A DNA stretch of 64,000 nt, taken from positions 1-64,000 of the forward strand of contig JANSYQ010000005.1 in the NCBI GenBank assembly GCA_024742305.1, written 5' to 3'. The DNA is from a bacterium (GTDB lineage Bacteria; Bacteroidota; Bacteroidia; Flavobacteriales_D; Crocinitomicaceae). A model generated the notes under the pieces. That model saw nothing but the letters and a program-made list of their open reading frames with translations. It was not told the DNA's origin and searched no databases. The translations under genes and the position numbers were made by a program. Shown here piece by piece: positions 31,406 through 53,714 of the stretch (the first letter of the stretch is position 1; every line of letters starts with the position of its first letter).

Positions 31406-31493
31406 TTTTATTTGTGTTTGAGGGAGATCATGAATTAAGGCTTATCCTCCGATGAACTTGAGTCCCTCTGATTAAAAAATTCTAAATTGAAAA

Positions 31494-36693: not shown

Positions 36694-37092
36694 TTAATAT
36701 ACGTAAGCGAGAACCTCTCCTCCTACGTTTTCTTTCTGTGCTTGTTTACCTGTTAGTACACCTTTCGATGTAGAAACAATAGCAATTCCTAAACCGTTCA
36801 AAACGCGCGGCATTTCTGTTGCGCTGCTGTACTTACGAAGTCCCGGACGAGAAGCACGTTGCAATTTTGTGATTGCCGGCACTTTCGTTGAGTTGTTGTA
36901 CTTCAAAGCGATTTTGATGATTCCTTGCTTGTTGTCCTCTTCGAATTTGAAGTTAGTGATGTACCCTTGGTCAAACAAGATTTCTGTCATTGCTCGTTTC
37001 ACTTTCGAACCTGGGATTTCCACTACCTTCTTACGTGCCGCGCTTGCGTTACGAATTCGCGTAAGGTAATCTGCGATTGGATCTGTATTCAT
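36694..37092 (-). CDS. rpsH: 30S ribosomal protein S8
   Basis: 132 residues from the ATG at 37092 ([16 protein letters not shown]), the universal S8 start. The same frame stays open upstream to 37170, but those 26 residues have no counterpart in S8 and are rejected. The C-terminus [31 protein letters not shown] is intact. S8 represses the spc operon in E. coli. Here it is preceded by an unusual 261-nt gap with hairpin, direct repeats and a -7 element, so it could head its own transcript. Confidence 0.96.
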
Positions 37093-37203
37093 ATTTGTTA
37101 TTTGCGGAAACGGTTTTCGGTGTTTGTTTTTCCGAACCTGAATCCAGTTAATACTTGTTTTTCGGCTCATCTCGCATTTGCTTGATGATAGCCTTTGACC
37201 TTT

Positions 37204-37253
37204 TGACTGCTTGACTTTTAGACGATTCGAAGGGTCGAAAAGTCAAATAGTCA
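37204..37253. repeat. Long hairpin in the rpsN-rpsH gap
   Basis: TGACT-gc-TTGACTTTT (37204-37219) pairs with AAAAGTCAA-at-AGTCA (37238-37253): 9 + 5 bp with a symmetrical 2-nt internal loop and an 18-nt loop that contains its own small dyad. No T-run follows on the minus strand. Confidence 0.65.
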
Positions 37254-37280
37254 GGCTGTCAAGCCGTCATTTTGGGAGGG

Positions 37281-37288
37281 CAAAGATA
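37281..37288 (-). promoter_or_regulatory. Candidate internal promoter of the ribosomal cluster
   Basis: TATCTTTG on the minus strand is identical to the -7 element of the rpsL promoter and of the left-edge promoter. The matching TTG at -33 is not present. It lies in the only large gap of the cluster's first half, about 190 nt before rpsH. Confidence 0.4.
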
Positions 37289-37353
37289 TAAAGACAAAAG
37301 ATGATAGCCTAATTGACCGTCATCTTTTATCTAATTTCTAATTGCTCTCTTGT

Positions 37354-37668
37354 TTACCAGCTTGCCTTTTTGACACCTGGGATCTTTCCGTCAAGGGCCA
37401 TTTCACGGAATGTAACACGTGAAATTCCGAACTGACGCATGTACCCGCGAGGACGTCCAGTCAAACCGCAACGGTTGTGTACGCGAACTTTTGATGAGTT
37501 AGCTGGAAGCTTCTGCAATTTGATCATTGCTTCTTGCTTCTTCTCCCACATCTCGTCAGAGTCATCTTGAGATTTCAAGATTTTCGTTAACTCTGCGCGT
37601 TTTTCCGCGTAGCGAGCTGCTAGTCTTTCTCTTTTGCGCTCACGCGCTTTCATTGATTCTTTTGCCAT
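37354..37668 (-). CDS. rpsN: 30S ribosomal protein S14 (zinc-free, long form)
   Basis: 104 residues. The start [27 protein letters not shown] and the end [27 protein letters not shown] are typical. Only one Cys remains, so the zinc site is absent. It is longer than the 89-residue S14 I recall for most Flavobacteriia. The extra ~15 residues (around 28-48, [20 protein letters not shown]) line up with the region present in the ~101-residue E. coli protein. It is 6 nt from rplE. Confidence 0.96.
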
Positions 37669-47085: not shown

Positions 47086-47115
47086 CAAAGATAGAAGGAT
47101 AATTTTATAAATCAA
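47086..47115 (-). promoter_or_regulatory. Promoter of the ribosomal supercluster (rpsL)
   Basis: On the minus strand TTG (47115-47113), a 19-nt spacer and TATCTTTG (47093-47086) exactly match the Bacteroidota consensus and have the same sequence and spacing as the left-edge promoter at 85-114. Transcription should begin near 47080, giving a leader of about 52 nt. Confidence 0.75.
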
Positions 47116-53633: not shown

Positions 53634-53714
53634 CTAGATAAAAGACCGAGAGAACAAAGACAAAAGACGTCTTTACTCTTTCTTCTTTTCATCTTTTATC
53701 TCAAAAAAGAAATT

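Follow-up and report, generated by a model that had tools for sequence, protein, structure and literature searches.

A conserved candidate uS8-binding leader RNA ahead of rpsH in a Crocinitomicaceae genome and its relatives

The window analyzed here, a 64,000-nt stretch of DNA from a Crocinitomicaceae genome, carries a ribosomal protein operon on its minus strand in which rpsN and rpsH are separated by a gap of 261 nt (37093-37353). Read along the minus strand, the gap is made up of three modules, a putative promoter (A), a palindrome (B) and a structured RNA (C), and the features discussed below are located as follows.

36694..37092, minus strand: rpsH (uS8), directly behind the leader; its translation contains an STS tripeptide
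37099..37155, minus strand: module C, candidate uS8-binding leader RNA, from the R1 model, de novo structure and covariation
37105..37111 (3' strand) and 37140-37146 (5' strand), minus strand: lower helix P1 of the consensus structure
37112..37118, minus strand: GAAAACC, forming the S8-like core on its 3' side; no variation at columns 60-65 across 49 sequences
37134..37139, minus strand: AGGTTC, forming the S8-like core on its 5' side; descriptor match at 37139, no variation at columns 17-21 across 49 sequences
about 37156..37273, minus strand: module B, absent from 9/12 aligned gaps (alignment A2, 12 gaps)
37184..37194, no strand assigned: second copy of GATGATAGCCT, inside module B and absent from two sisters
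37281..37288, minus strand: -7 element TATCTTTG of module A, a TAnnTTTG promoter motif conserved in relatives
37292-37304 and 37320-37332, minus strand: arms of the module A hairpin over the upstream part of the promoter, 13 nt each and 92% complementary
37300..37310, no strand assigned: first copy of GATGATAGCCT, inside module A and common to both sisters
37354..37668, minus strand: rpsN (uS14), the gene before the gap; its end at 37354 includes the stop codon

The first-pass annotation had recorded the 261-nt gap, a stem at 37204-37253 and the GATGATAGCCT direct repeats 116 nt apart, all of which are present as it described them, but it overlooked the conserved element at 37099-37155. Taken as RNA of the coding strand, the gap folds with -77.4 kcal/mol (z -6.9), and none of 200 shuffles was as good. 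An in-frame ATG at 37170 opens a longer rpsH frame (36694-37170, minus strand; 158 aa) that runs through the leader and may be chosen by gene callers; the conserved start is at 37092. We take the meaning of the gap from what is conserved in relatives, to which the first-pass annotation had no access.

Module C is 57 nt long, with its 5' end at 37155 and its 3' end 6 nt ahead of the rpsH ATG, and matches the R1 covariance model in the window with 64.4 bits (E 8.9e-15). The common form of this block of ~55 nt before rpsH is AACTGG...CAGGTTC...GAAAACCG..ACCGCAA. In a MAFFT alignment of 49 leaders (A1), the structure obtained de novo consists of a lower helix, a bulged A, a GGUU/AAAACC core and an apical hairpin. 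When a fuller structure specified by us is applied to A1, 86.5% of the cells pair and 10 of the 15 pairs have changed on both sides, with a covariation score of 0.343 vs 0.187 for shuffled alignments (0/500) and at most 0.119 when the structure is slid. The middle pairs of P1 are often non-standard, three of them being unpaired in 24, 23 and 16 of 48 A1 rows. A further set of 63 loci (A3), one row of which is also in A1 and 62 of which are new, gives 90.7% pairing cells and a covariation score of 0.363 vs 0.173 for shuffled alignments (0/500; at most 0.126 when slid), although A3 was fitted to the R1 model and its members were found by R1, which biases it towards the structure as A1 is not. 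Thirteen columns of A1 are invariant, and eleven of them lie in the core (A17, G18, G19, U20, U21, A60-63, C64 and C65); the remaining two are a single A on either side of the lower helix. Module C thus has the conserved, covarying structure, syntenic with a ribosomal protein gene, that characterizes an r-protein leader.

The distribution of the leader was followed in several partly overlapping sets. We found rpsN in 57 of 60 related genomes and took the loci of the best 30 (same genus, own genome included); the leader stands directly 5' of rpsH in 27 of these, even in gaps of ~60 nt, and is absent from three (L021, L027 and L028), where the gaps are ~17-22 nt. In L027 and L028 the S8 N-terminus reads MYTDP, and in the other loci compared it reads MNTDP. 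Among 80 named rpsH loci, which partly come from the same genomes as the same-genus set, 79 could be judged (L082 begins inside rpsH) and 36 of these carry the leader. By record label the carriers include Aquimarina, Gelidibacter and Subsaxibacter; the four Fluviicola-labelled records are divided into two with the leader and two without, and it is missing in two Lishizhenia and three Brumimicrobium records. Taken together, the 168 loci with both genes comprise 142 distinct gaps, 108 with the block and 34 without; these loci were selected by closeness or by the model, and the shares are not population frequencies. All 34 block-free gaps are 15-34 nt long, so that a long junction consists of the block plus whatever is upstream of it.

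Genome searches with R1, in which strict filters were used and weak matches were lost, returned matches in 30 of 399 genomes of the order (28 from the own genus, own genome included, and two from another genus of the same family) and none in the other 369. In the class, 14 of 395 genomes matched, own genome included, and 381 did not under the same strict filters. The highest share was in one family, probably Flavobacteriaceae since the named carriers belong there, with 160 of 249 genomes (150 of 235 genera). We followed 91 R1 loci: the order search supplied 30, the class and family searches together supplied 41, and 20 were chosen by coordinates, 18 of the last being the weakest among the matches listed for this family. 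By tblastn, rpsH lies directly downstream of the R1 match in 90 of the 91; the exception (L215) is a second, weak match (E 0.0016) in one genome. The distance from the core end to the AUG is 19-22 nt across the R1 loci; 17 loci were scored at 14-15 nt with a second AAAACC as the anchor, and 15 of these have 20-21 nt otherwise.

In an rpsH tree of 80 rows the carriers form two groups with non-carriers between them, which forces two changes and means either partial loss of an old leader or two gains. Because its columns are few and many of its forks are open, the tree is used for this two-change statement only. If there is any S8 control in the leader-free species, it would be by other means. 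Three sequences in the tree, L071 (Glaciecola amylolytica, CP034120.1) and L047 and L055 (with Sphingomonadales and Candidatus Planktophila titles), group with Crocinitomicaceae-like sequences, and look like wrong labels or contaminants.

The core of module C resembles the site at which S8 binds 16S rRNA. This site is described as containing the base triples A595-(A596-U644) and (G597-C643)-U641, an invariant A642 and a variable position 641, and the STS tripeptide of S8 is reported to stack on A642 (PMC4176348). On the 16S scale, the leader has A at 595, G-C at 596-644, G-C at 597-643, U-A at 598-640, U-A at 599-639, and A at both 641 and 642, with minus-strand position 37139 equivalent to A595 and 37114 to A642. 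No 16S rRNA was found in the own genome, and helix 21 was for this reason taken from eight SSU loci of the order (L145-L151 and L153), where it reads AAGUCAG ... UUGA(U/A)ACUG; because these relatives have U or A at 641, the A641 of the leader is natural. An SSU match in a same-genus genome (L152, G018:C84:3672-5258) is AT-rich with an odd helix-21 region, perhaps an organelle-like contamination, and was excluded. The rare variants of the core parallel rRNA as well, with A596-U644 in L214 and C599-G639 in L168 and L213.

Written as a descriptor, this core is matched by 102 of 109 leaders vs 5 of 2180 shuffles, figures to be read with the facts that the descriptor was composed after the leader had been seen and that the 102 homologous leaders are not independent. 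The seven leaders missed are L035, L040, L107, L108, L164, L168 and L208, some of them by an upper-helix mismatch. Across both strands of the window together, the descriptor matches six places. In the MG1655 stretch it gives no site at the E. coli spc operator, and a strand-permuted version gives two matches, neither at the rplE start; given this failure, we do not use it to claim the absence of S8 sites elsewhere. The descriptor supports, and does not prove, S8 as the ligand. A true leader with uL6, uL18, uS5, uL15 or some other factor as its ligand would also suit an RNA that precedes a run of ribosomal protein genes, and the likeness to the S8 site was recognized post hoc with a descriptor that matches those six places in the window. 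We consider such a ligand unlikely, however, in view of the immediate neighborhood of rpsH at 90 of 91 loci and of an invariant core whose rare compensated variants track the S8 site.

Rather less likely still is that the hairpin tunes only the translation initiation of rpsH or the stability of its mRNA with no specific protein bound. The end of the hairpin is close to the AUG, and mRNA structure near the start is described as tuning initiation in Flavobacterium johnsoniae (PMC6847099); yet the invariant unpaired bases, the bulged A and the AA on the 3' side, would be superfluous in a plain hairpin, and the helix sequences vary freely while pairing is kept. 

The core has what is expected of a uS8 operator, namely the bulged 595, the paired 596-644, G597-C643 and A642, and it is located in cis, within the same spc cluster as the S8 gene. 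The initiation region of rplE, where such an operator would be placed, is not where it is found; since it precedes rpsH instead, we file it as a variant and not as an E. coli-type operator. We therefore read module C as probably a leader through which uS8 regulates its own synthesis, in some cases accompanied by a separate promoter, and put the probability of this reading, in which binding and repression are predictions from the sequence comparisons, at roughly 0.75.

Upstream of the leader, module A contains the 8-mer TATCTTTG, which the first-pass annotation had found identical to the -7 element before rpsL; the same 8-mer does stand there, at 47086-47093. The word by itself is not significant, with four occurrences in the window vs 3.03 expected. 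Its form at 37281-37288 is that of the Bacteroidota sigma-A -7 element, TAnnTTTG having been mapped as the sigma-A -7 consensus in Flavobacterium psychrophilum (PMC9723704), and the sequence on its flanks is conserved as well. The claim of a promoter element is borne out by conservation: TAnnTTTG is present in 16 of the 25 leader-bearing gaps that have at least 25 nt of extra sequence upstream (shuffle mean 1.2, maximum 4 in 200 rounds), and our script did not find it in the other nine. L142 (the same-genus locus L030) has TATCTTTG, but the pattern cut it and it stands outside the count. In 12 of the 16, by the script's count, the motif is 16-20 nt before the leader, the exceptions being the own genome (131 nt), the sisters G021 (100 nt) and G018 (140 nt), and L164 (32 nt). 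A transcript from this promoter would, as read from these distances, begin near the leader in relatives and ~110 nt earlier here. The other 83 of the 108 leader-bearing gaps have no room for a promoter, and the promoter is accordingly optional.

At the -33 position there is a weak TTA(G) 21 nt upstream of TATCTTTG, not TTG; the promoter of rpsL, also in the window, does have TTG, 20 nt ahead of its copy of TATCTTTG, and PMC7366714 reports that no -33 motif was identified in F. johnsoniae. Simple scans of 36900-37500, built for other promoter types, returned no sigma-70 promoter and no intrinsic terminator. The module A hairpin with its T-rich flank could serve as a terminator for readthrough from rpsN. 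A mobile promoter block was considered and rejected; the 25-nt promoter sequence matches the own genome once elsewhere, with 3 mismatches.

Module B lies between promoter and leader in 3 of the 12 aligned gaps, those of the own genome and two sisters. Within it, the palindrome at 37195-37262 is an imperfect inverted repeat with 34-nt arms (74% complementary), built from units of period 8 with TTGAC on one side and GTCAA on the other. The stem at 37204-37253 consists of 5 + 9 pairs around a 2-nt mismatch, and a perfect 9-bp stem is reached in 8 of 400 dinucleotide shuffles. The TTGAC unit pattern is matched 20 times across the genome, two of the matches being in the palindrome and several overlapping in arrays, vs one for a reversed control. 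At another genomic place (L002 1480-1600) the unit is also seen, within sequence rich in TTGACT, and at 53636-53701 of the window there are likewise palindromes or arrays of short units that contain GAC and repeat with a period close to 8. By eye, the two sisters have palindrome-like stretches where module B lies, but built from another word, CTAGAC. The literature searched held nothing relevant on the palindrome.

The first-pass annotation had explained the gap as the scar of an element bounded by direct repeats that had introduced or kept the promoter and so divided the cluster. Its observation of an inserted-looking stretch holds as far as the hairpin region 37195-37262 goes, which is present in only 3 of 12 gaps, but a repeat-bounded scar is not what the alignment reveals. 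The GATGATAGCCT copy at 37300 sits within the promoter block, is present in both sisters and so does not flank an insert, and relatives with nothing at the place of module B keep the promoter block. These relatives had been expected to lack one repeat copy plus the interval; they lack the second copy and the palindrome instead. The first-pass annotation had also stated that the same gap in distant relatives without the repeats would speak against an insertion, and in part this is what is found, since promoter and leader occur there repeat-free. A repeat-bounded insert that supplied the promoter is thus very improbable. In its favor are the lack of module B in 9 of the 12 aligned gaps, the recurrence of the unit pattern across the genome (20 matches vs 1) and the placement of the 11-nt repeat on both sides of the palindrome. 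Against it, aligned relatives that lack module B still combine the promoter with the leader, the 37300 copy is part of the promoter block, and 11 of 400 dinucleotide shuffles reach an exact repeat of 11 nt. On the same grounds we rejected an insertion with target-site duplication, the copy at 37300 lying inside the promoter block and the relatives in the 12-row alignment keeping the promoter interval. As the aligned gaps read, module B is a repeat particular to this lineage, placed between a promoter and a leader that are both older, and not a carrier of the promoter.

The structure, its conservation and synteny, the core resemblance and the promoter conservation are read from sequences, and on them we base a proposal for S8 binding, repression, coupling, the transcription start and the cluster split. 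In the uS8 leader reading, the RNA of module C would bind uS8, the product of the adjoining rpsH, by mimicking the S8 site of 16S helix 21, namely the bulged A at 595, the pair 596-644, G597-C643, the unpaired A's at 641 and 642, and U598-A640; the mimic would stand on the lower helix P1, below the apical hairpin. S8 in excess over free 16S rRNA would bind the leader, whose 3' edge is ~13 nt before the AUG, and the bound S8 may block 30S loading. The output of S8 would then fall and, via translational coupling, also that of rplF, rplR, rpsE and onward to secY. Here and in some relatives, the sigma-A type promoter in the gap would start a second transcript upstream of the leader, which would make the second half of the spc cluster separately transcribable. 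The palindrome between promoter and leader (own genome and two sisters) would lengthen the 5' UTR by ~110 nt and is probably incidental. More broadly, and with somewhat less assurance than for module C itself, we think it likely that a uS8 feedback RNA is widespread in much of the probable Flavobacteriaceae and in one Crocinitomicaceae-like genus, that it controls the second half of spc with the feedback point at rpsH and not at rplE, that it has repeatedly been paired with a promoter that splits the near-universal S10-spc cluster in those species, and that at least two gains or losses took place among the species of the rpsH tree.

Rfam 15 gave no match to module C in 36900-37500, at 13 carrier loci, or at this place in a whole-window scan. 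Table 1 of Eckert and Weinberg, which gives new leaders, has no S8 entry (PMC7247131), and rpsH is absent from the main text of the F. psychrophilum transcriptome paper, whose 64 structured 5' regions are in its supplement (PMC9723704). We found no report of an S8 leader of this kind in the open-licence literature; an earlier report elsewhere is possible. A 2024 review names S8 control for E. coli and Vibrio cholerae and states that its phylogenetic study has not advanced (PMC10931766, section 2.6); by the same account the question of S8 control beyond E. coli and its kin is open, and the leader, as a short and well-delimited RNA whose core hardly varies, makes it directly testable. Leaders with variants at 596-644 and 599-639 are a natural set of S8 sites for the study of rRNA mimicry, and the leader-free species are natural controls. 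The findings also suggest that r-protein feedback points move within a nearly fixed gene order.

Compared with known systems, module C has its closest counterparts in an rRNA helix, a local leader and the E. coli operator. With 16S helix 21 it shares the bulged A, G597-C643, U598-A640, A642, the variable 641, and paired 596-644 and 599-639; in the leaders, 596-644 is mostly G-C and 599-639 mostly U-A, and the lower helix and apical loop are short and unrelated to helix 21. The S4-Flavobacteria r-leader (RF03141) is found in the same window at 31426-31457 (minus strand), directly before rpsD, with 40 bits (cut-off 35.2), and is likewise a short hairpin before its regulator's own gene in the same operon, but with a different sequence. 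Like the uS8 operator of E. coli spc (PMC10931766), module C is a cis RNA in the spc cluster near a start codon, for which we propose uS8 as the repressor and helix 21 mimicry. Whereas the E. coli operator is at the rplE start, module C stands before rpsH, often paired with a promoter, as a candidate for uS8 binding; and the rRNA-type descriptor that fits the leaders has no counterpart site at E. coli rplE. We rate module C as an RNA that would act like an S8 operator, with binding predicted from its sequence, and that differs from the E. coli type in both place and sequence.
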